A stretch of DNA of 64,000 nt, from positions 2,503,246 through 2,567,245 of the forward strand of contig NC_088296.1 in assembly GCF_032854445.1 (NCBI RefSeq). Direction: 5' to 3'. Source of the stretch: Liolophura sinensis. Its lineage: Eukaryota; Mollusca; Polyplacophora; Chitonida; Chitonidae. A model generated the notes under the pieces. That model was given only the letters and a program-made list of their open reading frames with translations. It was not told the DNA's origin and ran no database searches. Made by a program: the position numbers and the translations under genes. Below, one piece after another: positions 28,301 to 61,238 of the stretch; position 1 is the first letter of the stretch; each line of letters starts with the position of its first letter.

Positions 28301-29136
28301 AGTATTTGTCTGCATATTTGTTTCTTACCTCCCATCTTCCATACCTCAGCGGTTCGCATCCCTTGTACCACAGCATTACAGCATAGCAACGCTTCCTTAT
28401 ACTGTCCTCTACCAAACAGAATCTCCGCCTTCTCTTTCCATAGTTCGGGGTTGTTAGGGTCGACTTGTAGCGCTGTACCGTAACACACCAACGCTGCCTC
28501 TGTGTCCCCGTCCTTCCTCAGCTTCCGAGCCCATGCCCCGGCCTCACCCCTATTTTCCAAACACGGTGTCTCATCCGTTAAAGCAGGTACGTCGTTCAGA
28601 CGCTTCTTGTCTATGATTTCAGCCTCAAGAAGTAGCAGCTCGTCATCCCCTGGGTAGGGGTCCTGGGAACACAACTTTAAGGCGTTGTAATCGTCCTCCA
28701 CTTCCTTACTCCCTGTCTCTCGGGCTGCTAAGATGTCAGTCTGCATTTTCTTCAGATCAGTCACAATCGTCTTGTGGTTCGGATCAATGTCCAGCCCGCG
28801 TCTGTAGGCGTTCAGGGCGTCTTCAAATCTCCCGAGCTTCACGAGGATTTTGCCACACCAGATGTAACCGTCAATACAGACCGGATGTTGCTGGGTGACG
28901 CGGTAAGCCTCTGTCAGAGCCACAGCGTACTTCTTCTCCCCGTACAGCTTAGCTACGCTCAGCAGCTCGAAATTCACTTCACATCCCGCGTCTTCGTTAT
29001 GCTTCCCCGGTATCTCCGCGATACCTCTACCCGACGGGTCAGGTTCCCAGCCCTCTGCCGCCTCATCTTCACCCTGGATGTTCTGTTTGCCACCACCACC
29101 AGACGTGCCGTTAACATTACTGTGTGTGTCAGCCAT
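21599..29136 (-). CDS. TPR-SET-MYND lysine methyltransferase (SMYD5-like), 3 coding exons
   Basis: Joined exons 29136-28329, 23840-23120 and 22346-21599 give 2277 bp, or 758 residues; phases 1 and 2 match at the two junctions. Residues 53-131 and 198-259 are TPR-like helical pairs. Residues 330-355 form the SET N-part (GRAIRSSG...KGE). Residues 365-432 form an inserted MYND finger (C365, C368, C406, C409, C415, C419, H428, C432). The SET C-part has the NHSC motif at 611-614 and the expected tyrosine at 649; post-SET cysteines are C671, C673 and C676. A second MYND finger is at 686-728 (C686, C689, C702, C705, C711, C715, H724, C728). SMYD proteins methylate lysines on histones or other proteins. 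The cysteine spacing and post-SET context look most like SMYD5, but human SMYD5, as I know it, lacks TPRs and the second finger. Substrate and location are unknown. SMYD4-like ancestry is the alternative. Confidence 0.9.
22347..23119 (-). other. Intron 2 of the SMYD-like gene
   Basis: A 773-bp GT-AG intron without a recognisable repeat or embedded gene. Open frames on either strand are short and unrelated to known proteins. Confidence 0.85.
23120..23840 (-). CDS. SMYD-like gene, coding exon 2 (SET N-part, first MYND)
   Basis: The acceptor is TGTTCTTTCAG|GGAAGATTC, and the donor is TTCAGAAG|GTAAAC with GT at 23119-23118. It enters in phase 1 and leaves in phase 2. It encodes residues 270-509 and part of 510: a last TPR-like helix, the SET start, the inserted MYND finger and the SET-I beginning. 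Confidence 0.92.
24059..24404 (-). repeat. SINE-B, full-length
   Basis: Read on the minus strand, it begins with a tRNA-like head (GGCTCCGATAGCACAGTTGG, A-box; GATCAATCCTGGGTCGAGCC, B-box side). A body with CAGTGAAGCAGCACTAGATA follows. It ends in 'TATGACTGAAAAATTG' and ACGACGTTAAACCCCAAGCA. The head alone could be mistaken for a tRNA gene, but it lacks a matched acceptor stem and continues into the SINE body. Confidence 0.85.
24640..24810 (-). repeat. tRNA-like repeat fragments
   Basis: Two stretches read on the minus strand as B-box-like words: TGTTCAAGTTCAGCTCTGG near 24640 and GTGTTCAAATCCAGGTCTTG near 24770. They are probably decayed tRNA-derived repeats. No cloverleaf can be completed. 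Confidence 0.35.
26029..26990 (+). repeat. 47-bp satellite with 281-bp higher-order repeat
   Basis: There are about 20 units carrying 'CCATCTCATTACCACACTAC', then GCGTGAAATGTTTGTACAGC. A distinctive pair (TATGCATGCAATGTTTCTAC with a 1-bp-shorter unit) recurs at 26268 and 26549, giving a 281-bp super-period (six units minus one base). Units decay towards 26990. It lies in intron 1 of the SMYD-like gene. Confidence 0.9.
27040..28310 (+). repeat. Degenerate ~40-bp tandem array
   Basis: Units contain ATGTTTCTCCTGAAGTTTTC, then ATTATTACAGTAAGTGTG. Lengths and sequence vary widely. It is interrupted by a SINE-A at 27710-27945 and stops about 20 bp from the exon 1 donor of the SMYD-like gene. Confidence 0.75.
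27710..27945 (+). repeat. SINE-A inside the degenerate array
   Basis: It has 'GCGCAGCGTAATGACCCAGG' (end of the head), TGTGAGTTCAAGTCCCCTTT, the GCGGATGGACGTGGATTTTT core, and a TACCAATCAAATAAATAAAT tail. It splits the array, so it inserted after the array formed. Confidence 0.85.
28329..29136 (-). CDS. SMYD-like gene, coding exon 1 (TPRs)
   Basis: Residues 1-269. The chosen ATG at 29136 has an excellent context (ACCATGG). An in-frame ATG 30 bases upstream (29166) has a weaker context. The exon ends ATGGGAG|GTAAGA, with the donor GT at 28328-28327, in phase 1. The N-terminal 50 residues are Gly/Glu-rich and probably disordered. The TPR-like segments follow. Confidence 0.9.
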
Positions 29137-29255
29137 GGTACTCGAGTCAGGCAGGTAGCATCTCATGTACAACACTCCCTCTACACTATACTAAACCATC
29201 ACTGTGTAACATCACCGCTTTCCTTTGACGCCCGACTGACTCCGTCATTTTAAAC
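29137..29255 (-). other. 5' leader of the SMYD-like gene with acceptor and uORF
   Basis: A good acceptor (CTTTTGTTTCACAG|GTTTAAAATG) ends at 29256, so the start-codon exon probably begins at 29255 and is preceded by a noncoding exon. The leader has an out-of-frame upstream ORF of 20 codons (29248-29186, ATGACGGAG...TAG). Possible donors for an upstream leader exon on the minus strand are TACG|GTGAGT near 30686 and GTTG|GTGAGT near 31085; neither is certain. Confidence 0.5.
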
Positions 29256-37324: not shown

Positions 37325-38146
37325 AACATCTGTCAGTTACTTACAGCACTGTGTCCTCTGTGGCGTAAGTTACTTACAGCACTGTCCTCCATTTCCGTAA
37401 GCTAGTTACAGCAGTGTCCTCCATTCAAGTAAGCCATTTATAGCACTGTGTCCTCTATTTCCATCAGTTACAGCAGTGTCCCCCATTCCGTAAGTTACTT
37501 ACAGCACTGTGTCCATTTCCGCATGCTACTTACAGCGTTGTGCCCCTATTTCTGTAAGCTACTTACAGCACTGTGTCCTCCTTACCCGTAAGTTACTTTC
37601 AGCACTGTGTCCTACACTCCCGTCAGTTACTCACACCACTATGTCCCCCATTCCCGTAAGTTACTTACAGCACTGTGTCCTTCATTTCCGCACGCTACTT
37701 ACAGCGTTGTGCCCCTATTTCTGTAAGCTACTTACACCACTGCGTCCTCCTTACCCGTAAGTTACTTTCAGCACTGTGTCCTACACTCCCGTCAGTTACT
37801 CACACCACTATGTCCCCCATTCCCGTAAGTTACTTACAGCACTGTGTCCTTCATTTCCGCACGCTACTTACAGCGTTGTGCCCCTATTTCTGTAAGCTAC
37901 TTACACCACTGCGTCCTCCTTACCCGTAAGTTACTTTCAGCACTGTGTCCTACACTCCCGTCAGTTACTCACACCACTATGTCCCCCATTCCCGTAAGTT
38001 ACTTACAGCACTGTGTCCTTCATTTCCGCACGCTACTTACAGCGTTGTGCCCCTATTTCTGTAAGCTACTTACACCACTGCGTCCTCCTTACCCGTAAGT
38101 TACTTTCAACACTGTGTCCTCCATTCCCGTCAGTTACTCACACCAA
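37325..38146 (+). repeat. 34-bp satellite with 169-bp higher-order repeat
   Basis: Units of about 34 bp contain AGTTACTTACAGCACTGTGT then CC(T/C)CCATTCCCGTA. From about 37505 a five-unit block repeats with a 169-bp period (equivalent points at 37675, 37844 and 38013), and these copies are almost identical. The first units (37325-37500) are more varied. Confidence 0.92.
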
Positions 38147-40320
38147 TACTTATTCATTTGACTGGGTCTTTTATTCAACAATAATTCACTTCTACTGCGG
38201 TGGCCTGAACTTTGGTGGGAGCAATGTGGCAATATCACGGTGTACTATCCACTCCAGTGTGAAAACAAACTAAATCACACTTTCGTCATTTTGTAAAAAA
38301 AAAAATTATTTATTTGATTAGTATCATAACATACTGGTTACGGTACTGAAATAATCTTAAAATGCATCGCAATAGCACACATCTAGAAAACAAAGAAATA
38401 AAAAAGCAATGCCACGTAGAAATTATGGTACGATTATGCCCCTGTATGCTTTTATAGGCCTACAAATTAACGCACTCCAGAGCAAGGGACAACACCCTGT
38501 ATTTCTGTCCTATCTGTCCATGGTAAGGAATCTCGTTTTATCTTCCTGTACAAGCATCAGTATGTAATCGATTGACCCTTAACTTAGTCTACTGGACGGC
38601 ACCTTCCATCCGATATGATTTCAGTCATTACAGTACTGTCATACATCGTTATATGTACTTTTCTCCCTCTCAAGGCCGAACTTTGCATTCAAATATTTGA
38701 AAACTGTGTGGGCTTCATGAGCCATAATGAAGAAATCTAAGAACTCTGACGTCACATCAGTGTCGTGATTAGGTAAGAGGTCACAGTAAGATGGTGTACA
38801 TTGAACAATGTTCAATTCAAACATAATTTTACAAACCCTGAAAGATAAAATGCCATGAGAAAGAATCACAGTAAAATCTCTAATACACAATCCAAACAGC
38901 TCTTTCAAATTCAAACCTGCATAGGACAAGTTATCACGAAAAACTCTAACAGTTTTTTTACTTTCATACGAGGCTTCATCTAAAACATCTTATAGACAAC
39001 ACTATAGTGGATTTCAACAATAATTTCAAACTGGACAAAGTTTGTGATATGAATTCGTAAACTATATGTAAACACACATGTGTTACAATAATTAATCATA
39101 AACTCTGCACAAAGACCAAACTAATTCAATAGATGCTGTAGCGTCTAATTCATTATACAGGGGCTGCATGTGACATCATCACCTTGACAGAATAATAGCC
39201 AGTCGTCCATATTGGATTCCTGTTAACGTGTGCTGGTATAGCCACAAAACTCCAATATGGCTGCCGGAAGTGGGTCATGCGATGCAGCACCTCTTTAGGC
39301 CAACCAAACATGACCTTAACAGCGTAGCATGACACTTTTACTGTCATGTAATAGAATTCACATGAATGAAATGACCAGCTGTCTCGCGCTCAAACAGTGC
39401 AGAGCTATCCTTCTAACGTGACTGAAATAGTCACACACAACACGGTAAGAAATCCTTTTTTCTTTTTTTCTTTTTTGGGCCCACGGGACAACACTGCATC
39501 TGGTGAGGTGTATATACCATTCCCAAGATCCCCATCCTTGTGCCCCAGTTCAGCAGGCCAATGGGTTTGTCCTCTCTCAAACCATCAGCAGCCACTTCGA
39601 TATGCCAATTACTCAAAATAAATTTTCTCAGGCAAGCCTACAAATTTTCAGATTTCGGATACTGGAACCAAAAACTCCCCACAGCCCACTTAAAGGCCGC
39701 TGTACAGAAATCATGAAAAAAAAAAAAAAAACAACACATATGATCTCTGAAAAGTGCACACATTTCTCAACCCGTAATTCTTTTTCTTTAAACCTCTTCA
39801 CATCATCAAACATTCTCTTTCTCTCACGGCTTATAAAGCAATATATCAAATAACACTTTGGACCGCTGGTCCTATGGCAAATGGCAAAAATATGGCTAAC
39901 TGTAAATAAGACAAAGACATAGACAAATTGAAAGGTCAATATTATCTATTGTCGATACTGTGGCTGAGTAACTGAGTGGAGAATAGAAGTTCTGAATTTT
40001 TGGGTGTACAGGTAGGTCTTTCTGGTAGCACACAAGGGCCCAGTTGTTCGAAAGTGTATTAGCTAAAACTTATATTAAGTCAATTTTATACTTAAGATTT
40101 TCAGGCAAATTCATCAGCCAATTGAGCTGACCAAAGTCTAAGGATAACAGCAGCAGGCTTAGTTCATATTCATTGTACTGTTCTGCAATTATTTTTGGGC
40201 TGAGTACAAACAAGAGAACTTGGTCTAAAGTTAAATCTGGTATAAAGTCTACAAACAGTTTTGAACAACCGGACCAAGGTGACCAAGTATACAGGTGTAT
40301 ACAAAGCAGTACAAAGACTA
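38147..40320. other. Noncoding intergenic region
   Basis: No supported gene. It is A-rich on the plus strand with poly-A near 38297 and 39716-39731 and T-runs near 39459-39476. The open frames of 60-115 codons are unrecognised. Confidence 0.45.
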
Positions 40321-45274: not shown

Positions 45275-48200
45275 CTGCAAAGTCAAACAAATGTACCACA
45301 CAATGTACGACATGCTCTTCAGTTATAAGTCCAGTTTCAAGAGACATTGCTTTTACAATATACCAGACGGCAGGCCCAATGCCAAAACTAGGTCGAGGAA
45401 AAGGAAAATGGTTTTCTACATAAACAGTTCTTGGAGAGTTGAAGAGATATGTTTACAATCCTCTCCGAAAATCGGTCTTCAAAGACCTTGAAAATAATGA
45501 TCAATGCCACAAAAAATGAATAAGGTTCTTAATTCCCAATGATTGAGTGTATCAAAATTTGGTGTAAGTTTGGTGAACCTGGCTACAAACATTCAGGAGA
45601 TACTGGAAAGATGGATGGACAGACTAATGTCAATTCCTATGATGATTATTTAGGCTGAAAGTTTAAAAAACAAAATCATCATTCAGCGTTAGATACATTT
45701 TTCCAAAGTATATATGGTAGTGGCATTGAGGAGATCACTTTCATTTCTGTGAGATCACATAGCATGTCAGTGATCACAGACCCACCACACTGTGAGATCA
45801 CACAGCGTGTCAGTGATCACAGACCACCACACTGTAAGATCACACAGCATGTTATTGATCACAGACCCACCACACTGTGAGATCACACAGCACATCAGTG
45901 ATCGCAGACCCACCACACTGTGAGATCACACAGCATGTCAGTGATCACAGACCCACCACACTGTGAGATCACACAGCGTGCCAATGATCACACACCCACC
46001 ACTGTGAGATCACACAGCATGTTACTGATCACAGACCCAACACTCTGTGAGATCACACAGCATGTTAGTGATCACAGACCCACCACACTGTGAGATCACA
46101 CAGCATGTCAGTGATCACAGACCCACCACACTGTGAGATCACACAGTGTGTCAATGATCACACACCCACCACACTGTGAGATCACACAGCGTGTCAGTGA
46201 TCACAGACTCACCACACTGTGAGATCACACAGCATGTCAGTGATCACACACCCACCACACTGTGAGATCACACAGCGTGTTAGTGATCACAGGCCCACCA
46301 CACTGTGAGATCACACAGCGTGTCAGTGATCACAGACCCACCACACTGTGAGATCACACAGCGTGTCAGTGTTCACAGACCCACCACACTGTGAGATCAC
46401 ACAGCATGTCAGTGATCACAGACCCACCACACTGTGAGATCACACAGCATGTCAGTGATCACAGACCCACCACACTGTGAGATCACACAGCGTGCCAATG
46501 ATCACACACCCACCACTGTGAGATCACACAGCATGTTACTGATCACAGACCCAACACTCTGTGAGATCACACAGCGTGTTAGTGATCACAGACCCACCAC
46601 ACTGTGAGATCACACAGCATGTCAGTGATCACAGACCCACCACACTGTGAGATCACACAGTGTGTCAATGATCACACACCCACCACACTGTGAGATCACA
46701 CAGCGTGTCAGTGATCACAGACTCACCACACTGTGAGATCACACAGCATGTCAGTGATCACACACCCACCACACTGTGAGATCACACAGCGTGTTAGTGA
46801 TCACAGGCCCACCACACTGTGAGATCACACAGCGTGTCAGTGATCACAGACCCACCACACTGTGAGATCACACAGCGTGTCAGTGTTCACAGACCCACCA
46901 CACTGTGAGATCACACAGCATGTCAGTGATCACAGACCCACCACACTGTGAGATCACACAGCATGTCAGTGATCACAGACCCACAAACATGTCCTTTGTT
47001 ATTGTGCAATATCAACAGGGAACTTAACTTTTTTCTTCGTGGACATACTGACAGAAAAGATGTTAATAAAAGTTTTACTATAATATTTGACAAGAAAAAT
47101 CTTAAAGGGACGAGGTTCCCAACCAACAGTCATTCCCAAGCATTCTATCTTTTGTCCTTCCCTGTAATATGTCACAATTCTTCTGCACCGTACGTGTGCT
47201 CCTGATCTGGAGAATGTTGTGATGCTATACACGAGTAGCCCAGGGTTATTGTCCAGGCATAATTCAGCAACAACAAAGCCTTATCGTTAAGATTTATTTA
47301 TTTGTTTGATTAGTGTTTTACGCCGTACACAAGAATATTTTACTCATATGAAGATGGCCAGCATTATGGTGACAGGAAAACAGACAGAGCCCAGGAGAAA
47401 CCCATGACCGTCCACAGGTTGCCGACAGACCTTGTCACACACGGATTGTTAAGAAGACTTGGGCAATATATACTTTAGTCTCTATGGATAGGGTAAAGTT
47501 CTGGTTTGCTTGCCAATTTTGTCAAATTCACAAGTTCACCATTTTCCTTTCAAATTTCAACAGTAGGGGCACAAATGGTTTTGGTGATACTTAAAATAAA
47601 AGATATCCATACATGTTAGCAAGAATACCTGATTAAACTTTTTTCTGCACTATTCAGAACTTCATTAGCCTATTGTTTTGGGGTACTTGTTTGAGGTTTA
47701 ACGCCCCTTTCCACAGTATATATGGTATCGAATCATGAGGGTGATACTCTAACTTCAATCATTTTGAGAAGCAGCTGTATAAATGTCTGTCTGTGTGTTG
47801 GTTTGTCTGCTCACCGGTCACATTTCTAACATCCTATCTCGTAACTTGGGGCATAATCTCTTAACACGGAGTGTGAGTACAACGCAACACTGGCTTATGT
47901 ACATGTATGTTACATGAGAAGCAGCTGTATAAATGTCTGTCTGTGTGTTGGTCTGTCTGCTTCCCCGGTCACATTTCTAACATCCTATCTCGTAACTTGG
48001 GGCATAATCTCTTAACACGGAGTGTGAGTACAACGCAACACTGGCTTATGTACATGTATGTTACATGAGAAGCAGCTGTATAAATGTCTGTCTGTGTGTT
48101 GGTCTGTCTGCTCACCGGTCACATTTCTAACATCCTATCTCGTAACTTGGGGCATAATCTGTTAACACGGGGTGTGAGTACAACACAACACTGGCTTATG

Positions 48201-51200
48201 TACATGTATGTTACATGAGAAGCAGCTGTATAAATGTCTGTCTGTGTGTTGGTCTGTCTGCTCCCCGGTCACATTTCTAACATCCTATCTCGTAACTTGG
48301 GGCATAATCTCTTAACGCGGAGTGTGAGTACAACACAACACTGGCTTATGTACTTGTACGTCACAACTTTTTTAAATTTGTGTTTGTTACAATTAGGCCA
48401 TGCAGAAGATACCACAAATGACATCAACTTCCCAAAACACCCCCCACCCCCCACCCCAACTTGACCCCAGAAGCAAACTGCTTTCTTACCAACAATGCCG
48501 CCACCAACAGCTGCCAAACTTCCCACTTTCAGCCCAGCCACAAGCCCCACTGGACCCCCGATGACACCCCCGATGAGAGCCCCTGTGACCGGAAACATTG
48601 CAGCCTTCAACTTTGATGCCTGAGATGTAAAAGCAAAAAGACCACAATTAGACACCTATGCTACAAGTAAGTTTAATTAAATGAGTAAACCTTATGCTCG
48701 ATTAGAAAAAATCAAACTGCCTTTCTGGACATCATCTCAGTATTTAATGGTCTTTCATCTATATATCTATATATATGAAGATACATATATTCAATGTTTG
48801 TGTTTTCTTTGCCTTTAACAGTCTCTGCAGATCTGAGTTATATTAAAGCTGTCCATGGCTGTAATCTAAATGTCATGGTTACCGCTGAACTTATTTCATT
48901 CTGTATAAAAGTCACATGAGAAATGGTTTGAGGATATTCAGCTTTAAGGGACGCATGGAATGCTGGGTATTGTATCTTCATACGTAACTTAGGATGTGAA
49001 AGTATAATACAGCTGCACAGCCTTTTTCTCGGGGCGTAAAAATGGCTTTAAACTACAATTGTCCCGAGGCCCCAGCAGTCAGTCCTAAAATTAAGTAGCT
49101 TGCTGTAGTGATGTTAAGGGTAATAACTGTCAAAACAACTTTGCTGGCCAGTGGGGTGCTAAACTAGTCTCGCGTTCCCTGTATGCTTATCGATGGCGTC
49201 ATTTCTATGGCGACATTTACACCCACTGACACAAGTAATGCATAAAATAGAGAGGTTTGTAGGAAATATAAAATATGCCTCAAAAATGAACTTCTTTTGT
49301 GATTTTTTTTTTCCTTTCTTCAGTTTCCTTCAAATCATACTCTTTATTTTACAGTATCTTTTCATGTACCCGTTAAGATGGCAGGTCAGCCAACAGACAG
49401 AGAGGCAGAGCACTTACCTTTGACAAGCTATACACTCCCTGCTGCACATTTTCGTGAGCTTTGTCTATGTTTTCCTCAATTGTGTCAATCTTTTCCTGCT
49501 GGTCCTGAAACATTTTAATTCCCATATATCACTCTGCTCAGTACTCAATTTTGAGTCGGTCAGCCAAATGGGGCAGAGAATGCAGAAAACTATGACACCT
49601 CAACAGATGTATCTCAGAAAATAGTGGAGAATGTGACGCTAGTGTTGATACACTTCTTTACCTTTTCCATGGCTGTGTAATGTCACACTATGATCACAGT
49701 GGCTGATAACGGCCATCTAGACCATAAAGAGAATCGCAAATTTTCATCTCTGCAAACATGTGGAACATGCGAATGGGGTGCATCCTTGTTAAGGTTTAAG
49801 GGTGAAGGAACTCAAGACGGCCACTGGTACGCAACACGTACAGGTTTAAGGGTGAAGGAAATCGGAGCGCCACTGGTACGCACCACGTACAGGTTTAGGG
49901 GTGAAGGAACTCGGAGCACCACTGGTACGTACCACATACAGGTTTATGGGTGAAGAAACTCAAGACGGCCACTGGTACGCAACACGTACAGGTTTAAGGG
50001 TTAAGGAACTCAAGACCGCCACGGGTACGTACCACATCCAGGTTTAAGGGTGAAGGAACTCAGAGCGCCACTGGTACGCAACACATACAGGTTTAAGGGT
50101 TAAGGAACTCAAGACCGCCACGGGTACGTACCACGTCCAGGTTTATGGGTGAAGGAACTCAAGAGCGCCACTGGTACGCACCACGTACAGGTATTGGGGT
50201 GAAGGAACTCGGAGCGCCACTGGTACGTACCACATACAGGTTTATGGGTGAAGAAACTCAAGAGCGCCGCTGATACGCAACACGTACAGGTTTAAGGGTA
50301 AAGGAACTCGGAGCGCCACTGGTACGCAACACGTACAGGTTTAAGGGTTAAGGAACTCAAGACCGCCACGGCTACGTACCACATCCAGGTTTATGGGTGA
50401 AGGAACTCGGAGCGCCACTGGTACGTACCACGTACAGGTTTAAGGGTGATGGAACTCGGAGTGCCGCGGGTACGTACCATGTACAGGTTTATAGATGAAG
50501 GAACTCAAGAGCGCCACTGGTACGCAACACGTACAGGTTTGTGGGTGAAGGAACTCAAGAGCGCCACTGGTACGTACCACATACAGGTTTATGGGTGAAG
50601 AAACTCAGAGCGCCACTGGTACGCAACACGTACAGGTTTATGGGTGAAGGAACTCTAGCGCCACTGGTACGTACCACATACAGGTTTATGGGTGAAGAAA
50701 CTCAGAGTGCCACTGGTACACAACACGTACAGGTTTATGGGTGAAGGAACTCTAGCGCCACTGGTACGTACCACATACAGGTTTATGGGTGAAGAAACTC
50801 AGAGTGCCACTGGTACACAACACGTACAGGTTTATGGGTAAAGGAACTCGGAGTGCCACTGGTACGTACCACATACAGGTTTATGGGTGAAGAAACTCAG
50901 AGCGCCACTGGTACGTACCACATACAGGTTTATGGGTGAAGTAACTCGGAGAGCCACTGGTACGTACCACATACAGGTTTAAGGGTGAAGGAACTCTGAG
51001 CGCCACTAGTACGCAACGCGTACAGGTATTGGGGTGAAGGAACTCAAGAGTGATACAGGTACACACCAAGTACACTATCTGATTTGTCACGTTATTAACA
51101 ATTTTTCTCACAAGAGACATAAGGATTTGCATGCTGTGTTGATGAAAGACAAGTGATACAGGTACCTTGAAGTACTTAATTTTCACGTGGAACTAATTTT

Positions 51201-54200
51201 CGCGGATTTTGCAGTCAGTAATTTACCGTGAAAAATAATTTCTATGTAAAAACTTCCAATACTGAATCATAAAGGCTTATTTCAGGAAGTAGTGGTCTAG
51301 TAATAATGAAGGGAAATCTTTGCCGGGCTGGCAGAAATAAGAAAGCTTTTGAGAAGTTTGGATAAGAAAGCTCAGTGATTCAGCTAAAGGGAAGAAACAT
51401 TAGGCTTGAAATATATGCATACAAACTCTGGGGATAGGGCTGGGTGGGCATGAAACAAAGTGGGAGTTCATTGTTGGTTTCCAGTGAATGTTGCTCTGAG
51501 ACACGCCATCCCATTGGCTGTGTCTCTCCTGTAAGCCAATGAGTGAGCTGTTCACAGCACAATGGCTGTTTGAAAGCTTCGGCAATGCTATCAGTTTTAG
51601 ATCGGCTACACAGGATGTTTGAAACGGAAAACAATCCAAAACTAATCGTGTTGCTTGAGTGCGTTAATCAAGAATTAATGACTGGTGTTGAAATACTGGT
51701 TGCTGATTAAAATTACTCATCAAAGGTGTGAATTCTAGAGACAACTCTCTGAATTCTGCTCACGGTAGGTTCTCAGGTAATCTCACATATTTATTAAAAA
51801 ATACCTCATGGTTTTAATCTCTAATGCAGGATTAGCGACATCGCAGGAAATGGGAAATGGGAAAGGGTTAAAGCCACCCTTGATAATACCTGTTTGACAA
51901 ACTTGTGTAATTTGGGCCATATCATAACTAAGAAAATTAAACAATTTTAAGATTGTTACCTTGATTAAATTAATAAAAATTAATTCCCATAAACCCATTC
52001 TTGAAGTTTATCAGCGAAAATAAATTCCAGTGAATAATACAAAGTTTAAAGTATTCAACGAAGAGCACCATTTATTGTCCCAAATGCCACCAGAATTAAG
52101 GAATGACTTAACTATGGCACACCTTGTGTAGTAGTCGTCCTCAGTCGTGCAACCTAAGACTGAGCCATTACCTTCCCGTAAGATGATAATGATGAAGATG
52201 ATATTACTGAGAATGATTTTGTTAGTAAGGTTAATAATGACGACAGTGGAGGTAATGATGCTAGAGATGATACAGACAAAGATAATATTACTGAAGATAA
52301 TGCTGCTTTTATTGCATGATGATCATGATGATATGGATGAAGATGATCTTAGTGATGGAGATGATGCCAGCAATACTGCAAATGCAGATGGAGATGATGC
52401 CAGTGATACTGCAAATGCAGATGGAGATGATGCCAGCGATACTGCAAATGCAGATGGAGATGATGCCAGCGATAATGCAAATGCAGATGGAGATGATGCC
52501 AGCGATAATGCAAATGCAAACGGAAATGATGCCAGCAATACTGCAAATGCAGAGGGAGATGATGCCAGCGATAATACAAATGCAGATGGAGGTGATGCCA
52601 GCGATAAAGCCAATGCAGATGGAGTATGATGTTAAACCCCTAACACTCAATCACTCACTCAAATGCAGATGGACATAATGCCAGTGATAATACAAATGTA
52701 GACAGAGATGGATGAAGCCAGTGATAATGCAAATGTAGATAGAGATGATGAAAGAACATGATGATTATACATGATACAGATGAAGATAATGTTAGGGATG
52801 GAGACGGCTGCTATCACCCACTCCTCTCCGGCCGTAAGTGGGAAGGTTTCAGCAACCTACGGATGGTCGTGGGTTTCCCCTGGGCTGTGCCTGGTTTTCC
52901 ACCCACCATAATGCTGGCCACTGTCGTATAAGTGAAATATTCTTGAGTACATCGTAAAACACCAATCAAATAAATAAATAAATAAATGCTATCACCCACC
53001 ATAGTATGTTATTATAGAACAACAATGAAACAGATAAAGAAGTGTATCAACACTAGCATCATACTCTTGACTATTTTGTGAGATGCAGCTGATGAGGTGT
53101 TATAGTTTTCTGCATCCTCTGAACTCCTTAGTTGATGATAATGATGATGTTAGGGATGGAGATGACGCCAGTGATGACAATCACAAAGACAATGTAGATG
53201 GTGATGATGATGATGACGATGACGATGATGATGATGCTGCTGATGAAGACAATGACACTCTATGGAATCAGCCTACCTGTATCATGGTAGAGAAGTCATG
53301 GAATAGGGCATTCAGTTCAATCAGGCTCTGCAATGTAAACACAAAACACCTCGTCACCACAGTCACGCGCTGTGCAATAATATGTAGCAATAATACTACA
53401 TGGCAAATGATATCATTTTCAAAATAATATAATATTATTTCATGAATATTAAAGGTCATACGATCATGTAGCTCTTTCCTTTTGCACTATATACCAACTG
53501 ATCATTAAAGGCAGGGATCAGAAGACAGAATAAGATGCTGTTTCACTAGCCCCAAATGATACTTTACACCTTCAGTGAATGGGACATTGGTTTTATCATT
53601 TCTGGACACATTTAGCCACTACACCTTCACTACATTTGTCACATTTACCCTTAATACTATTCGTAAGTTTGCTGAAACAAATATCCCCATGATAATGATG
53701 TTACCTGTCCAAGGGAGATAACTAGGCTAAAATTTAGGTCAAACCAAGCTATTGTCCCTTGGCATGCCACACACTGATCCCACTTGGCATGCGTACATTT
53801 TGCGTTTTTTTTTGCACATACATTTGTGAAATTTATTTTTCAAAAAATAACACATCTTTACATGTATATGCTGTAAGACTGCTATGAGCATTCACAGAGC
53901 TGGCTAAGCCTTATCAACATATTCATCTGGACATATCACAGATCTGACACGACTGGCAATAAGCAAGAAAAACTGTCTCAAAAATTCTCCTCTATGAATT
54001 TTCCACCTAGGATTTTGCTAAGAAAAGAGTAGCTAACTACTACGGCATACATATACAAGTAGTAATATAGTAGGCTGCCATTTTGGTCCTTCTATACCTT
54101 CAGAACCCTGCATTTCTATTTCAAGAAATCTGATTGCAGTAGCTTACATGTGCAAAAGATATAATTAATTGCTTCTCATCAAAGTTAATGCTTTAGAATT

Positions 54201-57200
54201 CTTTCCTGTAGACTAATATCACCCTCTCCATAGAAGATATGAAGTGAGTGACTCAAAAACAAACTCAAGATCTGACCTAAAATCTTCATGTAAGTACTTC
54301 ATAAGTTTAAACAATGTCATTGGTTTTATACTTCGTAATTATTGTAGACAGCATAATCTTTGAGAGAAATTTAACATTCCTTTGTGGTCACTGTGTTGTC
54401 TGGGATGACTTAGGTGTGTACTTACCTCTCTCAGGTGGTCCCAGGACTCTGCAGAGTCTGTGTTGTCTGGGATGACTTAGGTGTGTACTTACCTCTCTCA
54501 GGTGTTCCCAGGACTCAGCAGCCTCTGTGTTGTCTGGGAAGAATTAGGTGTGTACTTACCTCTCTCAGGTGTTCCCAGGACTCTGCAGCCTCTGTGTTGT
54601 CTCGGATGAATTAGGTGTGTACTTACCTCTCTCAGGTGTTCCCAGGACTCAGCAGCCTCTGTGTTGTCTGGGATGAATTAGGTGTGTACTTACCTCTCTC
54701 AGGTGTTCCCAGGACTCAGCAGCCTCTGTGTTGTCTGGGATGACTTAGGTGTGTACTTACCTCTCTCAGGTGTTCCCAGGACTCAGCAGCCTCTGTGTTG
54801 TCTCGGATGAATTAGGTGTGTACTTACCTCTCTCAGGTGTTCCCAGGACTCAGCAACCTCTGTGTTGTCTGGGATGACTTAGGTGTGTACTTATCTCTCT
54901 CAGGTGTTCCCAGGACTTCGCAGCCTCAGTGTTGTCTGGGATGACTTAGGTGTGTATTTACCTCTCTCAGGTGTTCCCAGGACTCTGCAGAGTCTGTGTT
55001 GTCTGGGATGAATTAGGTGTGTACTTACCTCTCTCAGGTGTTCCCAGGACTCAGCAGCCTCTGTGTTGTCTGGGATGAATTAGGTGTGTACTTACCTCTC
55101 TCAGGTGTTCCCAGGACTCAGCAGCCTCTGTGTTGTCTGGGATGAATTAGGTGTGTACTTACCTCTCTCAGGTGTTCCCAGGACTCTGCAGAGTCTGTGT
55201 TGTCTGGGATGAATTAGGTGTGTACTTACCTCTCTCAGGTGTTCCCAGGACTCAGCAGCCTCTGTGTTGTCTGGGATGAATTAGGTGTGTACTTACCTCT
55301 CTCAGGTGTTCCCAGGACTCTGCAGCCTCTGTGTTGTCTGGGATGACTTAGGTGTGTACTTACCTCTCTCAGGTGTTCCCAGGACTCAGCAGCCTCTGTG
55401 TTGTCTGGGATGAATTAGGTGTGTACTTACCTCTCTCAGGTGTTCCCAGGACTCAGCAACCTCTGTGTTGTCTGGGATGACTTAGGTGTGTACTTATCTC
55501 TCTCAGGTGTTCCCAGGACTTCGCAGCCTCAGTGTTGTCTGGGATGACTTAGGTGTGTATTTACCTCTCTCAGGTGTTCCCAGGACTCTGCAGAGTCTGT
55601 GTTGTCTGGGATGAATTAGGTGTGTACTTACCTCTCTCAGGTGTTCCCAGGACTCAGCAGCCTCTGTGTTGTCTGGGATGAATTAGGTGTGTACTTACCT
55701 CTCTCAGGTGTTCCCAGGACTCAGCAGCCTCTGTGTTGTCTGGGATGAATTAGGTGTGTACTTACCTCTCTCAGGTGTTCCCAGGACTCTGCAGAGTCTG
55801 TGTTGTCTGGGATGACTTAGGTGTGTATTTACCTCTCTCAGGTGTTTCCAGGACTTCGCAGCCTCAGTGTTGTCTGGGATGAATTAGGTGTGTACTTACC
55901 TCTCTCAGGTGTTCCCAGGACTCAGCAACCTCTGTGTTGTCTGGGATGACTTAGGTGTGTATTTACCTCTCTCAGGTGTTCCCAGGACTCTGCAGAGTCT
56001 GTGTTGTCTAGGATGACTTAGGTGTGTACTTACCTCTCTCAGGTGTTCCCAGGACTCTGCAGCCTCTGTGTTGTCTGGGATGACTTAGGCGTGTATTTAC
56101 CTCTCTCAGGTGGTCCCAGGACTCTGCAGAGTCTGTGTTGTCTGGGATGAATTAGGTGTGTACTTATCTCTCTCAGGTGTTCCCAGGACTTCGCAGTCTC
56201 TGTGTTGTCTGGGATGACTAAGGTGTGTACTTACCTCTCTCAGGTGTTCCCAGGACTCTGCAGCCTCTGTGTTGTCTGGGATGACTTAGGTGTGTACTTA
56301 CCTCTCTCAGGTGTTCCCAGGACTCAGCAGCCTCTGTGTTGTCTGGGATGACTTAGGTGTGTATTTACCTCTCTCAGGTGTTCCCAGGACTCTGCAGCCT
56401 CTGTGTTGTCTGGGATGATTTAGGTGTGTACTTACCTCTCTCAGGTGTTCCCAGGACTCTGCAGCCTCTGTGTTGTCTGGGATGACTTAGGTGTGTATTT
56501 ACCTCTCTCAGGTGTTCCCAGGACTCTGCAGCCTCTGTGTTGTCTGGGATGATTTAGGTGTGTACTTACCTCTCTCAGGTGTTCCCAGGACTCTGCAGCC
56601 TCTGTGTTGTCTGGGATGACTTAGGTGTGTACTTACCTCTCTCAGGTGTTTCCAGGACTTTGCAGCCTCTGTGTTGTCTGGGATGACTTAGGTGTGTATT
56701 TACCTCTCTCAGGTGTTCCCAGGACTCTGCAGAGTGTGTTGTTTGGGATGAATTAGGTGTGTACTTATCTCTCTCAGGTGTTCCCAGGACTTTGCAGCCT
56801 CTGTGTTGTCTGGGATGACTTAGGTGTGTATTTACCTCTCTCAGGTGGTCCCAGGACTCTGCAGAGTCTGTGTTGTCTGGGATGAATTAGGTGTGTACTT
56901 ATCTCTCTCAGGTGTTCCCAGGACTTCGCAGCCTCTGTGTTGTCTGGGATGACTTAGGTGTGTACTTACCTCTCTCAGGTGTTCCCAGGACTCTGCAGCC
57001 TCTGTGTTGTCTGGGATGAATTAGGTGTGTACTTACCTCTCTCAGGTGTTCCCAGGACTCAGCAGCCTCTGTGTTGTCTGGGATGACTTAGGTGTGTATT
57101 TACCTCTCTCAGGTGTTCCCAGGACTCTGCAGCCTCTGTGTTGTCTGGGATGATTTAGGTGTGTACTTACCTCTCTCAGGTGTTCCCAGGACTCAGCAGC

Positions 57201-60200
57201 CTCTGTGTTGTCTGGGATGACTTAGGTGTGTATTTACCTCTCTCAGGTGTTCCCAGGACTCTGCAGCCTCTGTGTTGTCTGGGATGATTTAGGTGTGTAC
57301 TTACCTCTCTCAGGTGTTCCCAGGACTCTGCAGCCTCTGTGTTGTCTGGGATGACTTAGGTGTGTATTTACCTCTCTCAGGTGTTCCCAGGACTTTGCAG
57401 CCTCTGTGTTGTCTGGGATGGCTTAGGTGTGTATTTACCTCTCTCAGGTGTTCCCAGGACTCTGCAGAGTGTGTTGTCTGGGATGAATTAGGTGTGTACT
57501 TACCTCTCTCAGGTGTTCCCAGGACTTTGCAGCCTCTGTGTTGTCTGGGATGACTTAGGTGTGTATTTACCTCTCTCAGGTGTTTCCAGGGCTCTGCAGA
57601 GTCTGTGTTGTCTGGGATGACTTAGGTGTGTACTTACCTCTATCAGGTGTTCCCAGGACTTTGCAGCCTCTGTGTTGTCTGGAATGACTTAGGTGTGTAC
57701 TTACCTCCCTCAGGTGTTCCCAGGACTTTGCAGATCTGTGTTGTCTGGAATGACTTAGGTGTGTACTTATCTCTCTCAGGTGTTCCCAGGATTTTGCAGA
57801 TCTGTGTTGTCTGGGATGATTTAGGTGTGTACTTACCTCTCTCAGGTGTTCCCAGGACTCAGCAGCCTCTGTGTTGTCTGGGATGACATGTGTCTGCAGG
57901 GCTGAAGAGAGCTCTATATCCTCCATCCTCTCCCCCTCTCCTTGAGGTCCGTCGGCCACGTCACTTTCCACGTGCAGTATGGCAGGACCTACTAACAACA
58001 GGAATTGATTAACCTTTTAATGTATCTTGATTGGTCTTTTTATTTTGAACTCAAGAACATTTGGCGTTTTTAATGTGGCACTTATGTTTCTGGGTGGATG
58101 GAAACTGGCTCTACTACCACAATCGCATAACAAACTTTCTAGGAGCAAGACTCTTTCATCAGGCCTCCCTGATCAAAAGTTTCATAAGTTATGTATGAGG
58201 ACTGGGCTAGTGTCCGCACATTTAGAGAGGTCATGGAATAGGGCACTGCGTTCATTCAGGCTCTGACCCAGTAGTAAGGCGTGCCACCGACAACTGCTGA
58301 CACAAAAGGCGCAAGATCTATCCCAGCCATAGCCAAGCAATTACTAGTAACAGGTTCCTTCCAAACCCCACCCCATTTCTTATTGATTTAAGGGCCTTGG
58401 TGACAATAATGGTTGGTAGCAATCATGTGGCCGTCAACGCAGTCTTTACAATTGATAATACTTAATCATTTGTCTTCCACCAGTACAGCATTTTTGTGTG
58501 CAAGTTTGTTGATCCCATGCGAATGAATGAATGAATGAATGAATGAATGAATGAATGACAACGGCCTTTCAGCAAGATTTCAGTCACACTGTGATAATAC
58601 ATCCAATGCGGAGAAGCCTGTCAATGGCTTACTACAGGTTGGTGATTCACACTGGGCATTTAGGTACCCTTCACCCATTAAACTACTATCACATCAGTGA
58701 AAAACTACAATCAAATACATGCAAATAACTACTACTGAATGTTTTCACTACCTGACCCAAGTAACATCAGCTCACCAGACCTGTCCTGTCGACTGTGCAT
58801 GTCTGACCCACCACAGCTCTCCATGAACTCAACAACACCCTCCACAGCCAGCTTCTTCACCGCTAGCACTCTAGAGTCAAACTTTTCCCAGTCCTCTTCC
58901 TGAATCTGGTTCCTCGCTCTCTCCATCTCCCTCACTGTGGCGTTGATTTGCTGAACAGTGCGTGAGGCATTCACCTGCTCTGTGTGGAGACTGCTCCAGT
59001 CTTCATTGTTCAGAAACTAAACAAACAAGCAACTATTTATTATGTATTTACCATGAAAATTTGCCTGATATAGTGCATTTTTGGAGGCAAAAAATAAAGT
59101 ATATACCCTAAATGACCGAAAAATTTTTTTAGAGGCAAATACATATATCAAAATACTATGTTAGGTGCTGAACCTTACAACTTTCCCGTAGAATATCAAC
59201 CATTGTTCCAAGCAAAGGTCAAAACACCTCTCTACAATCAACAGGGGGGGCCTCCGTGGCTCAGTCGGTTAGCGCGCTAGCACAGCGCAATGACCCTGGA
59301 GTCTCTCGCCAATGCGGTCACTGTGAGTTCAAGTCCAGCTCATGCTGGCTTCCTCTCTGGTCGTACATGGGAAGGTCTGCCAGCAACCTGCGGATGGTCG
59401 TGGGTTTCTCCCGGGCTCTGCCCGGTTTCCTCCCACCATAATGCTGGCCGCCGTCGTATAAGTGAAATATTCTTGAGTACGGCGTAAAACACCAATCAAA
59501 TACATAAATAACTCTACAATCAACAGAACTCTCAGAATCAGGAAAAATGGGAAAGTTTGTCATGGACGAAATTTTTGGTGATTTAAGGTAAATGCAACTG
59601 TAAATGTGTATCAATACTTTCTGTGTTCAACAATTTTTGTTAACAGGATATTGATCTATGGTGCTCATAGCTCCCAGAGAAACCTTACAAACATCTGTCT
59701 AAGATGAACACCACTCTCAGTATCAGGCAGAATGAAAACACAGGTAACTGACAGTTGGGGGCCTCCATGGCTCAGTTGGTTAGTGCGCTAGCGCAGAATA
59801 ATGCCCCAGGAGTTTCTCACCAATGCTGTCGCTGTGAGTTCCAGTCCAGCTCATCCTGGCTTCCTCTCCGGCCGTAAGTGGGAAAGTCTGCCACCAACCT
59901 GTGGATGGTCGTGGGTTTCACTCGAGCCCTGCCCAGTTTCCACCCCTCATAATGCTGGCCACCGTCGTATAAGGGAAATATTCTTGAGTATGGCATAAAA
60001 CACCAATCAAAACATATAAATAAAATGAATAAACAGACAGTCAATACTTCCGGTCAAATACAGTATTTATTTATTAATTTGAATGACAGTTGATGTCATA
60101 CAATGAAATACATTTCTCTTATACAATGAGTATAAGACTTTGGAGTAAAAGGAGCCAGGCTAACCCAAGACAACAAAACCAGGTGCTTTATAAAGAAATA

Positions 60201-61238
60201 AATACAACATTGTGAAATAAATAAAGCCTAGATTAAAATTTTGTCAGAAAAGAACACAGGCTTCTCACTTCGATTCATGGATATAAACGGGTAGAGGAAT
60301 TAGCCCACCCCAAGTAACCCACTGCCCTGTACCGCGGGCACCAGATGTTTTACCTGACGAACCTTCTGCAGGGGTCAATGCCCCATGCCCCGGGCACCAG
60401 ACATGTTACCTGACAAACCTTCTGCTGGGGTGAAAAAGTTTGATCATTCACAGGATTTTCAGAGATCAAAAAAAAAAAAAAAAAAACTGATGACCTCAAA
60501 TGGAGAACAGAGGTACATACTCACAAGATGACATTAGAGAAATATTCGTAACTTCAGACACATAAATGACTGTTTGATGTAATTTGTCCACTTCCATGAA
60601 GATTGTTTTGCAGTGTCTATAACTCGAATTTAATACATTTTACACATTAGTTCCAAATGAATAACGTCAATTTTTCTTAAGGCAGATCTTAAAATATCGA
60701 ACATTTTGACCTTGTCCTTACCAATGTCTAACCTACAGTGCTGAGTGCCAGGAGAAAACCACTGGCCTGTGGTAAGTTACTGACAAATCTTTTCACAAGT
60801 GATGAATATGATATGCACACTATATTGGTGGAAGTGAAGAAATTCTCAGTAAATATTAGACTGTGCAAACTGCCAGACGTGCATAGTCAACAGCTTACAT
60901 GCTGTCACATGCTGTCATCTTGGCCTGAAAAGCAGGGATAGCCTTCAGTCACAAAAGTAGAAAGCAAATGTAAAGCCAAGCAAACAAAGAAAGAAATGGA
61001 CTGAACCTTTACCTGAGGAGTGCACAATTTAACACGACTTTTAACGTTTCTCTAGATGGTACCGGTACCTGTAGCTTACCTTTAGTATCTTCACCTGGTG
61101 TTTTTTTAAGCGGTCAATATTTGTCTCTAGGACCATAACAAACTTGCTGATACTGGGCTCCACGCGTTTGTACGGGAATTTTTGATAGGCATCGGATTCA
61201 CTGAGAGAGCGCCGGCGATCACAGTCAAATGACGCCAT
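45165..61238 (-). CDS. STX17: Syntaxin 17, autophagosomal Qa-SNARE, 7 coding exons
   Basis: Joined exons 61238-61080, 59016-58752, 57991-57837, 53327-53277, 49504-49418, 48619-48490 and 45274-45165 give 957 bp, or 318 residues; every junction phase agrees (0, 1, 0, 0, 0, 1). Diagnostic stretches are NASRTVQQ (69-76, Habc region), AAESWEHL (184-191), SLIELNALFHDFS (194-206), DQQEKID (211-217, around the SNARE zero-layer Q), and a glycine-rich hairpin of two membrane segments (about 247-269 and 271-290, with GALIGG and GGPVGL). In animals STX17 moves to completed autophagosomes through this hairpin and pairs with SNAP29 and VAMP8 for lysosome fusion. Human STX17, as I recall it, has about 302 residues, so this copy is near normal length. 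Introns are crowded with minisatellites, and intron 3 contains tandem copies of the exon 3 donor. Confidence 0.95.
45751..46985 (+). repeat. 43-bp satellite with 514-bp higher-order repeat (STX17 intron 6)
   Basis: There are about 29 units with GAGATCACACAGC(A/G)TGTCAG, then TGATCACAGACCCACCACAC. A marked run of variants (GCGTGCCAATGATCACACAC with a shortened unit, then GTTACTGATCACAGACCCAA) recurs at 45977 and 46491, giving a 514-bp super-period of 12 units. Each unit has two near-palindromes centred on GATC. Confidence 0.93.
47294..47445 (-). repeat. SINE-A, truncated (STX17 intron 6)
   Basis: It has ATTTGTTTGATTAGTGTTTT, then ACGCCGTACACAAGAATATT and GGCCAGCATTATGGTGACAG. The tRNA-like head is missing. 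It lies in the same orientation as STX17. Confidence 0.8.
47766..48362 (+). repeat. 150-bp tandem repeat, 4 copies (STX17 intron 6)
   Basis: Copies start at 47766, 47916, 48067 and 48217. All begin GAGAAGCAGCTGTATAAATG and contain CATCCTATCTCGTAACTTGG and GGCTTATGTACATGTATGTT. Few bases differ. The array lies about 130 bp downstream of the exon 6 donor. Confidence 0.93.
48490..48619 (-). CDS. STX17: STX17 coding exon 6 (membrane hairpin)
   Basis: Acceptor TTACATCTCAG|GCATCA; donor GGCATTGTTG|GTAAGA, in phase 1. Residues 240-282 and part of 283 hold two short Gly-rich hydrophobic segments separated by K270, the hairpin typical of STX17. Confidence 0.96.
48620..49417 (-). other. STX17 intron 5
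   Basis: A 798-bp GT-AG intron. Apart from a TATATATC run near 48761-48778 I see no repeat or other feature. It is the only larger STX17 intron without an obvious minisatellite or SINE. Confidence 0.8.
49418..49504 (-). CDS. STX17: STX17 coding exon 5 (87 bp)
   Basis: The acceptor ends GTTTCAG|GACCAG and the donor is TCAAAG|GTAAGTG. It encodes DQQEKIDTIEENIDK and the end of the SNARE motif (residues 211-239). Confidence 0.95.
49785..51060 (+). repeat. ~50-bp satellite, ~26 copies (STX17 intron 4)
   Basis: Units have GGTTTA(A/T)GGGTGAAGGAACTC, then GAGCGCCACTGGTACGTACC and ACATACAG. Units alternate in type (GAAGGAACTC or GAAGAAACTC; GTACGTACCAC or GTACGCAACAC), showing two-unit periodicity in places. 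It starts about 280 bp upstream (in transcription, downstream) of exon 5. Confidence 0.92.
51061..52330. other. STX17 intron 4, unique part
   Basis: Noncoding, AT-rich, without recognisable repeats until the 33-bp array. The minus-strand frames at 51380-51639 are unrecognised. Confidence 0.5.
52340..52750 (+). repeat. 33-bp minisatellite (STX17 intron 4)
   Basis: Units contain GATGGAGATGATGCCAGCGA, then TA(C/A)TGCAAATGCA. About eight units are clean to 52626; two or three decayed units follow after a 35-base fragment resembling a SINE-B tail (52627-52661). Because 33 is divisible by 3, a plus-strand frame of 160 codons (52147-52629) stays open and would encode 11-residue acidic repeats (DGDDASDTANA). 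No splice or promoter evidence supports it as a gene. Confidence 0.88.
52811..52988 (+). repeat. SINE-A, 5'-truncated (STX17 intron 4)
   Basis: It has CTCTCCGGCCGTAAGTGGGA, GGATGGTCGTGGGTTTCCCC, TATTCTTGAGTACATCGTAA and an (AAAT)n tail. It is antisense to STX17. Confidence 0.88.
53120..53250 (+). repeat. GAT-rich simple repeat
   Basis: Imperfect (GAT/GAC)n with ATGATGATGATGACGATGAC. It lies just 3' of STX17 exon 4 in the sense of transcription, and its open frame of Asp codons is a composition effect. Confidence 0.8.
53277..53327 (-). CDS. STX17: STX17 coding exon 4 (51 bp)
   Basis: The acceptor is GTTTACATTGCAG|AGCCTG and the donor ATGATACAG|GTAGGC. Seventeen codons, phase 0 at both ends, encode SLIELNALFHDFSTMIQ, which continues the SNARE helix from exon 3. 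Confidence 0.95.
53460..54390. other. STX17 intron 3, unique part
   Basis: About 930 bp of AT-rich noncoding sequence between exon 4 and the 67-bp array. No features recognised. Confidence 0.6.
54391..57837 (-). repeat. 67-bp array of exon 3 / 5' splice site copies (STX17 intron 3)
   Basis: There are 52 units, counting the exon's own. On the minus strand each reads ATCCCAGACAACACAGAGGC, ...TCCTGGGAACACCTGAGAGA, then G|GTAAGTACACACCTAAGTC. This is the last ~48 bases of exon 3 plus ~19 bases of intron. By my count 32 units have GTAAGT, 14 GTAAAT and 6 have GT changed to AT (54890, 55493, 56163, about 56763, 56897 and 57766). The period is 67, except 66 for the two units next to the exon and about 64 for two units with a 3-bp loss. 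Units 7-12 and 16-21 match in order, giving a 603-bp super-period. Confidence 0.95.
57837..57991 (-). CDS. STX17: STX17 coding exon 3
   Basis: The acceptor is GTTGTTAGTAG, a TAGTAG tandem site: use of the second AG would remove one valine codon. The donor is CTGAGAGAG|GTAAGTACAC (GT at 57836-57835), in phase 0. It encodes an acidic linker and the start of the SNARE motif (AAESWEHLRE, 184-193). The last ~45 bases with the donor are the founder of the 67-bp array that follows. Confidence 0.93.
58028..58115 (-). repeat. Decayed SINE-A fragment (STX17 intron 2)
   Basis: CTTGATTGGTCTTTTTATTT, 'TGAACTCAAGAACATTTGGC' and TTCTGGGTGGATGGAAACTG resemble the 3' part of SINE-A in minus orientation, with many changes. 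Confidence 0.4.
58216..58262 (-). pseudogene. Partial degenerate copy of STX17 exon 4
   Basis: On the minus strand it begins at an AG (GGTCAG|AGCCTGAATGAACG) exactly as exon 4 does. It keeps GCCCTATTCCATGAC and CTCTCT, so about 42 bases match exon 4 with a handful of changes. It would read SLNERSALFHDLS in the same frame. The donor end of exon 4 is not conserved, so it is probably a dead exon copy between exons 2 and 3. Flanks show no similarity to the exon 4 region. Confidence 0.7.
58503..58640 (-). repeat. (GAAT)n and SINE-B-like tail (STX17 intron 2)
   Basis: (GAAT)n at about 58520-58558 is followed by GGCCTTTCAGCAAGATTTCAGTC, which resembles the end of the SINE-B copy at 35277-35512 in the same orientation. 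Confidence 0.5.
58752..59016 (-). CDS. STX17: STX17 coding exon 2
   Basis: Acceptor CTTGTTTGTTTAG|TTTCTG; donor GGGTCAG|GTAGTG (GT at 58751-58750), in phase 1. It encodes residues 54-141, including NASRTVQQ and the rest of the helical Habc region. Confidence 0.93.
59248..59511 (+). repeat. SINE-A, complete reference copy (STX17 intron 1)
   Basis: tRNA-like head: CCTCCGTGGCTCAGTCGGTT (A-box) and GTGAGTTCAAGTCCAGCTCA (B-box). Body: AGGTCTGCCAGCAACCTGCG and GGCTCTGCCCGGTTTCCTCC. End: TTGAGTACGGCGTAAAACAC and CAATCAAATACATAAATAA. It is antisense to STX17. Confidence 0.92.
59757..60032 (+). repeat. SINE-A, complete (STX17 intron 1)
   Basis: Same order of segments as 59248-59511: CCTCCATGGCTCAGTTGGTT, GTGAGTTCCAGTCCAGCTCA, and TTGAGTATGGCATAAAACAC with a short A/T tail. 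CpG sites have decayed (TATGGCAT for TACGGCGT), so it looks older than its neighbour. Confidence 0.9.
60300..60432 (+). repeat. Two-copy ~65-bp tandem duplication (STX17 intron 1)
   Basis: Both copies have GGGCACCAGA(TG/CA)T then GTTACCTGAC(G/A)AACCTTC and TGC(A/T)GGGGT. A poly-A stretch follows at about 60469-60486. Confidence 0.75.
61080..61238 (-). CDS. STX17: STX17 coding exon 1
   Basis: It starts at ATG 61238 in the context GTCATGG, encodes residues 1-53 and ends CTAAAG|GTAAGC (GT at 61079-61078), in phase 0. The conserved 'RVEPSISKFV' and KKHQVKI stretches match the start of the Habc domain. Confidence 0.93.

Follow-up and report, generated by a model that had tools for sequence, protein, structure and literature searches.

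Results

A syntaxin-17 gene that repeats its own splice donor

The window, by which we mean the whole stretch of 64,000 nucleotides of Liolophura sinensis DNA that was analysed (contig NC_088296.1, positions 2,503,246 to 2,567,245), carries on its minus strand six coding exons of a syntaxin-17 gene (STX17), and the third intron of this gene is largely filled by a tandem array that repeats the end of exon 3 together with its 5′ splice site. On the strength of its sequence the gene is syntaxin-17: the joined translation, searched against PDB with phmmer, gave syntaxin-17 as its top two matches (7bv6, E = 7.7e-14; 4wy4, E = 1.1e-10), and the predicted SNARE motif is closest to that of syntaxin-17. 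The general SNARE model of Pfam scored 22.1 bits on the same translation, under its curated cut-off of 26.8 bits. Because the alignment with 7bv6 runs without a gap from the tail of exon 3 (AESWEHLRE) into exon 4 (SLIELNALF), the native donor is fixed at 57836. A preliminary description of this DNA had put that donor in the SNARE helix; of this motif exon 3 carries just the beginning (of 57 residues aligned with 4wy4, 8 precede the junction), and the rest lies in exons 4 and 5. Exon 6 encodes a glycine-rich hydrophobic stretch, which may correspond to the C-terminal glycine-rich hairpin anchor of syntaxin-17. A translated search of the assembly found five STX17 stretches at this locus and one weak SNARE-like match on contig C7.

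The array was delimited by Tandem Repeats Finder (TRF) at 54391-57887, with a period of 67, 52.3 copies, 93% match and a score of 6049. Its unit consists of the last 51 nt (17 codons) of exon 3 and the first 16 nt of intron 3, and 48 of the 52 units are 67 bp long, two are 66 and two are 65. The gene, strand, exon and unit anatomy had been recognised correctly in the preliminary description, as the match to syntaxin-17 and the make-up of the unit confirm; the array had also been seen, but its start was given as 57837, whereas it begins inside exon 3, at 57887. The donor hexamers are GTAAGT in 32 units, GTAAAT in 14 and ATAAGT in 6. The donor counts reported earlier, 46/52 with GT and 32/52 with GTAAGT, thus stand with the exon's own donor at 57836 included, which leaves 51 intronic copies (hereafter decoys), 45 of them with GT. 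Intron 3 (57836-53328) is 4,509 nt long, and the array makes up 3,446 nt of it, or ~76%.

Head-to-tail imperfect units of ~10-100 bp define a minisatellite, and the 67-bp unit, with its 52.3 copies at 93% match, falls within this definition; the unit also contains the 5′ splice site of exon 3, with GT in 46/52 units and the exon end placed by homology, a feature of minisatellites that provide donors. A dispersed element or introner would lie at many loci, but a search of the 609-Mb assembly with the unit gave at least 52 matches, and all those reported lie in the STX17 array.

Table 1. Features of the STX17 locus, other minisatellites of the window, and three exon-end arrays elsewhere in the assembly (positions are those of the window unless a contig is given).
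Feature	Position	Strand	Basis or remark
STX17 coding exon 1 (from ATG)	61080..61238	-	Open reading frame (ORF) and GTAAGC donor
STX17 exon 2	58752..59016	-	End set by hand past internal GGGTCAG; phase 1 consistent with exon 3
STX17 exon 3, 152 nt, last 51 nt the putative founder copy	57837..57988	-	Homology without gap over the junction
STX17 exon 4, 51 nt, ordinary acceptor outside the array	53277..53327	-	
STX17 exon 5, remaining SNARE motif	49418..49504	-	ORF, PDB match
STX17 exon 6, end tentative	48490..48619	-	
Tandem array with 67-bp period: 52 units, the first being the exon 3 tail with 16 nt of intron, then a partial unit of 19 nt	54391..57887	-	TRF, unit splitting
Native exon 3 donor GTAAGT	57831..57836	-	9/11 matches to CAG/GTAAGTAT, best among six STX17 donors
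Decoy 2, dead (ATAAGT)	57765..57770	-	
Decoy 3, GTAAGT, the sole GT decoy with an open, unshifted frame (+132 nt, 44 codons)	57699..57704	-	
19-nt partial unit, far array end	54391..54409	-	
Minisatellite, 43 bp x 29	45747-46984		
Minisatellite, 49 bp x 25	49792-51050		
Minisatellite, 34 bp x 24	37335-38147		
Minisatellite, 47 bp x 17	26039-26966		
GH31 exon-end array, 39-bp in-frame unit, 13 residues per copy	L015, G000:C1:26352400-26355100		
POT transporter array at an exon end, 32 copies of a 96-bp in-frame unit	L029, G000:C1:6735200-6740000		
EGF-type exon array, last 27 nt + 5 nt of intron, 32-bp unit, ~143 copies, 4.6 kb	L016 + L038, G000:C1:31595800-31602600		

Similar arrays at other exon ends

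The preliminary description called an intron of this kind very unusual. We searched the assembly for three occurrences of the 8-mer AGGTAAGT spaced by 45-75 or 76-106 nt; the matches listed span contig C1 to ~92 Mb and ~85 Mb, and hand clustering gave 32 loci (22 and 10 new ones), all of which were fetched. The loci were thus picked solely for repeating one 8-mer on one contig. On the donor strand, 27 of the 32 have one or more stop-free segments of at least 22 codons at their upstream edge, 55 in total, and at seven the open frame leading to the first donor matched a Pfam family: POT transporter (E = 1.5e-16), DNA-PKcs (1.8e-15), GH31 (6.4e-14), prominin (1.3e-9), EGF (2.2e-8), UTP20 (2.2e-7) and Core-2/I-branching enzyme (1.4e-6). 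A match to DUF898 (E = 0.0044) was counted as chance. RPTOR is the eighth supported locus, by its PDB match (E = 8e-15); among eight PDB queries including STX17, the credible matches were those of STX17, RPTOR, UTP20 and DNA-PKcs and the other four gave none, and the matches of the last three genes extend to the final or penultimate residue ahead of the first donor. Another five loci (L013, L017, L019, L020 and L021) have exon-like open frames and no homology match. Because 8 of the 32 sampled arrays begin at homology-supported exon ends, the claim of rarity fails within this genome, and the STX17 array is, as far as such predicted exons show, one of a class in a minisatellite-rich mollusc genome.

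As a control we took the 19 loci among the matches listed (~90 Mb) that are arrays of the reversed 8-mer TGAATGGA, all of which were likewise fetched. They yielded 135 segments, taken on either strand at either edge, with minimum lengths of 30 codons and of 60 nt outside the array, compared with 22 codons and 36 nt in the donor set; L057 contributed no segment, and L043 and L047 contributed one edge each. In this control, which was searched with Pfam only, 0/19 loci had a credible match, the single match (P9_TM, E = 0.0053) being counted as chance. The contrast of 7/32 with 0/19 has a one-sided Fisher p of 0.029, but the two tests are not identical in thresholds, edges and strands, and part of the contrast is expected because AGGTAAGT is itself a donor consensus. 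The control array L043 (G000:C1:14406400-14408400), picked for the other motif, also repeats a donor-like AAGGTAAAYATCGC in the units listed.

A fairer comparison is with isolated AGGTAAGT sites, of which 54 were hand-picked from 100 listed with clustered matches excluded, 41 of them having a testable open segment. Pfam supported 4/54 as donors at E < 1e-4, or 6/54 if PEX11 and tetraspanin (E < 0.01) are included, when the output was counted by family, with zinc finger and zinc ribbon taken as one site and DUF7837 (E = 0.0015) and DUF7565 (0.0038) left out. Against these the 7/32 of the arrays gave Fisher p values of 0.09 and 0.22. Among the matches listed, hand clustering gave 22 distinct loci for AGGTAAGT in 92 Mb and, for TGAATGGA, 19 in 90 Mb; the 8-mers themselves have whole-genome totals of 26,582 and 29,090. 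The raw array matches are more numerous for AGGTAAGT, at 866 vs 608 in one search and 943 vs 440 in the other, counts in which large arrays weigh most because overlapping triples are included. We therefore rejected the idea that donors are hot or cold spots for arrays (7/32 vs 4/54, p = 0.09): arrays appear not to be kept away from real exon ends, and an enrichment there is at most a hint.

What the use of a decoy would produce

The nine supported arrays, STX17 included, differ in unit length: 67 bp in STX17, 61 in RPTOR, 76 in prominin, 83 in DNA-PKcs, 39 in GH31, 46 in the branching enzyme, 96 in POT, 106 in UTP20 and 32 in EGF. The length is a multiple of three in 2/9, as by chance. In the branching enzyme the exon end's second copy, 46 nt past the first donor, is where the TRF array starts; the others start within the exon. 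The first donor is GTAAGT in 8/9 arrays; in GH31 it is GTATGT, and 14 of its 23 later copies are GTAAGT.

The preliminary description had suggested that the decoys yield many length variants of exon 3. Variants of this kind may arise, but judged from the reading frames only one of the 45 GT decoys of STX17 would keep the frame without a stop, namely decoy 3 at 57704, which would add 44 residues. The reading frame stays open as far as decoys 2, 3 and 4 because units 2 and 3 are 66 bp long; decoy 4 is out of frame, and decoys 5-52 lie beyond a premature stop at codon 137 (codon 1 being the first complete codon of exon 3). In the other arrays, where copies were found by fuzzy matching so that counts are approximate and EGF was left unscored, the copies reachable in frame and without a stop number 7/23 in GH31, 5/31 in POT, 2/42 in the branching enzyme, 1/23 in prominin (a fuzzy match within the unit and no repeat of the donor) and none in RPTOR, DNA-PKcs and UTP20. 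In DNA-PKcs and UTP20 a stop follows immediately on reading past the first donor.

These counts bear on whether the exon end slides, i.e., whether some decoys are productive, chiefly decoy 3, whose 44 extra in-frame residues would fall where the SNARE motif begins. That this decoy is in frame and open speaks for it, as do the in-frame units of GH31 and POT with their reachable copies and the two copies of the branching enzyme. We nevertheless consider productive sliding in STX17 unlikely: a single GT decoy qualifies, the copies show no coding constraint (see below), the insert would presumably break the register of the SNARE motif, and the units are out of frame in 7/9 supported arrays.

RNA structure and neighbouring splice signals

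Folding predicted that three units are more stable than shuffled sequences (z = -3.40), as are the exon and the first units (z = -2.03), with ACCU blocks pairing with AGGU blocks inside and between units. The predicted local accessibility of the native STX17 donor ranks 20/52, and the native donor ranks first in 1/9 arrays (1/8 of the others). Since it is generally not the most accessible copy, RNA structure was rejected as the explanation of correct donor choice.

Each unit might also be a cryptic cassette exon, though this seems improbable. Between -20 and -4, the AGs of the units have 5-10 pyrimidines and the five native STX17 acceptors 7-14, so that the unit acceptors would be weak, with a range that overlaps the native one. 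An intron from the donor of one unit to the CCCAG of the next would be 26 nt long.

Growth of the array and no sign of selection on the copies

Among the 52 units there are 31 distinct types. A run of five identical units occurs again nine units away, and a block of 609 nt is found a second time, with no more than two mismatches, at a distance of 603 nt (9 units), which makes growth by multi-unit blocks visible and suggests, from this one assembly, that the copy number may vary between individuals. The idea that the edge units are the oldest was rejected: units 2-5 have 6, 5, 3 and 5 differences from the consensus (mean 2.6), yet units 7, 16, 18, 27 and 31 have 5-7.

Tandem arrays are error-prone in assemblies, and the array or its length could be an artefact. 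The 31 unit types, the ordered block repeats, the absence of N from the window, the restriction of the unit to one locus and the like arrays in other genes of the assembly make an artefact very improbable, though the copy number may still be off.

When the 51 intronic copies were compared with the exon copy excluded, the donor hexamers differed at 20/306 sites and the rest of the unit at 114/3111. The exon-derived part has 22 distinct substitutions, and the 16 nonsynonymous ones among them are near the 78% expected at random. Purifying selection was therefore rejected for the decoy donors, whose hexamers are not better kept than the remainder, and for the coding copies.

The same figures bear on a regulatory role, in which the copies would recruit U1 snRNP, or be spliced at a set rate, and unproductive splicing would tune the dosage of STX17. 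The unit has the best U1 match among the six STX17 donors, 32/52 hexamers are GTAAGT, and the use of a decoy would nearly always lead to a premature stop; moreover, a tandem copy number in an STX17 intron alters the phenotype of horses, though as an enhancer, according to the available part of PMC11362437. The U1 sink proposed in the preliminary description finds no support, however, because variation in the decoy hexamers is no lower than elsewhere in the unit. Similar arrays with different units lie in unrelated genes, and the predicted accessibility does not distinguish native from decoy donors. A regulatory function thus seems improbable to us.

Other features of the window

Beside the STX17 array the window is rich in minisatellites, with ~15 more arrays >120 bp (examples are in Table 1), none of which overlaps an STX17 exon by its coordinates. 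A 150-bp x 4 array at 47765-48365 starts ~125 nt past the donor of STX17 exon 6; the STX17 duplication of horses is in an intron numbered 6. On the minus strand, 28300-29190 is a long open frame in which visual inspection suggests TPR-like repeats, and is probably an exon of another gene. Elsewhere in the assembly, G000:C8:37880506-37891931 encodes eight consecutive molluscan hemocyanin beta-sandwich domains, which mark the assembly as molluscan; this family gave a signal in 0/14 control genomes.

Discussion

We think it probable that the array is a non-adaptive minisatellite that was founded at an exon-donor junction and is tolerated since the upstream-most donor wins. The 67-bp segment across the boundary of exon 3 and intron 3 (51 nt of exon and 16 nt of intron with the donor) would have been duplicated in tandem and then expanded through duplication of multi-unit blocks. 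The spliceosome would recognise exon 3 as reaching from the acceptor as far as the first donor, and mostly join the upstream-most donor to exon 4, the downstream copies being mostly ignored, or ladders of mis-spliced products being minor and degraded; either timing or exon context would favour the first donor, or the ladders would be made and then destroyed. We infer the founding step, the use of the upstream-most donor, the minor and degraded ladders and the lack of a selected function from the features described above. Arrays at exon ends would not be removed because the first copy remains the real exon end and all further copies are intronic.

Several points weigh against this account. The use of the upstream-most donor is derived from reading frames and protein conservation, and the direction of founding, from exon to intron, from the exon copy's agreement with the conserved protein. 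The ten intron-derived nucleotides after the hexamer (57821-54410) differ at only 2/510 sites, compared with 112/2601 in the exon-derived part, which the account leaves unexplained; and because the units share variants by descent, none of the conservation counts represents independent events. Productive sliding is possible in GH31 and POT, whose frames give access to several of their copies. In addition, Reed and Maniatis are said to have found that of two equal donors the intron-proximal one is preferred, which would predict the use of the last copy. Donor choice can be shifted either way by splicing factors, SRSF1 promoting intron-proximal and hnRNP A1 intron-distal donors in the accessible portion of PMC5585400.

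Competition among near-identical donors is commonly studied in minigenes with two donors. The chief value of the STX17 case is as a test bed for splice-donor choice, and arrays of ~7 to >100 units behind real exons, with near-constant flanks and a mixture of GTAAGT, GTAAAT and ATAAGT, offer a natural test of it. The arrays also suggest that a minisatellite can arise at an exon end and be retained in a conserved gene, where it would be a source of splice noise that annotation could misread. Whether there is a genome-wide class of dozens or more such arrays, including those in genes of basic cell function (RPTOR, UTP20 and DNA-PKcs), in which the upstream-most donor is reliably chosen, is a more tentative matter, to which we give somewhat less than even credence; "dozens or more" is extrapolated from a single contig. 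If there is, donor choice would track transcription order or exon context and not nearness to the acceptor. The literature searched, whose coverage omits most subscription papers, gave no account of such a class of donor arrays at exon ends across a genome. The available text of two tandem-repeat surveys (PMC8096271, PMC3152781) has no passage with splice-site or boundary terms, and that of two papers on mollusc introns (PMC3862624, PMC6905558) holds no precedent.

Several known systems resemble the STX17 array in part. The intron gain by tandem duplication of AGGT in the Rogers model (PMC4974935, as far as its accessible text goes) likewise has a duplicated segment that holds AG/GT. Such an origin was rejected here, as the acceptor CATTGCAG (53328-53335) lies ~1 kb outside the array and the protein alignment is gapless over the junction; because this acceptor is the intron's own, the array did not create intron 3. 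Internal repeats of duplicated human genes (PMC2812944) are also tandem repeats across exon-intron boundaries that are able to alter splicing, but the sections available deal with novel introns or length variants between human paralogs and describe no long intronic array of one donor. The CeRep25B minisatellites of C. elegans (PMC4039745) are intronic, lie near splice decisions and have been linked to multiple alternative splicing; they are, however, a dispersed repeat, described in the part of the paper at hand without copying of a neighbouring donor. The STX17 gene of grey horses (PMC11362437) shares with ours a tandem copy number within an intron, but in the text available this is a 4.6-kb enhancer in 2-3 copies in a different intron, and we claim no shared sequence.

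The closest system is the human 6-16/IFI6 gene, where a minisatellite is reported to supply multiple splice donors to one transcript (Turri et al. 1995), as the STX17 array could. The STX17 array differs from it in that the unit holds 51 nt of coding exon, the decoys are mostly frameshifting, there are 51 intronic copies and nine genes of one genome are supported by homology. In 6-16/IFI6 the unit is reportedly ~12 bp long and neighbouring donors are said to be used in the mRNA. The donor-bearing minisatellite is thus already known; what is new is the form with a coding exon, along with the array's length and the recurrence of such arrays.

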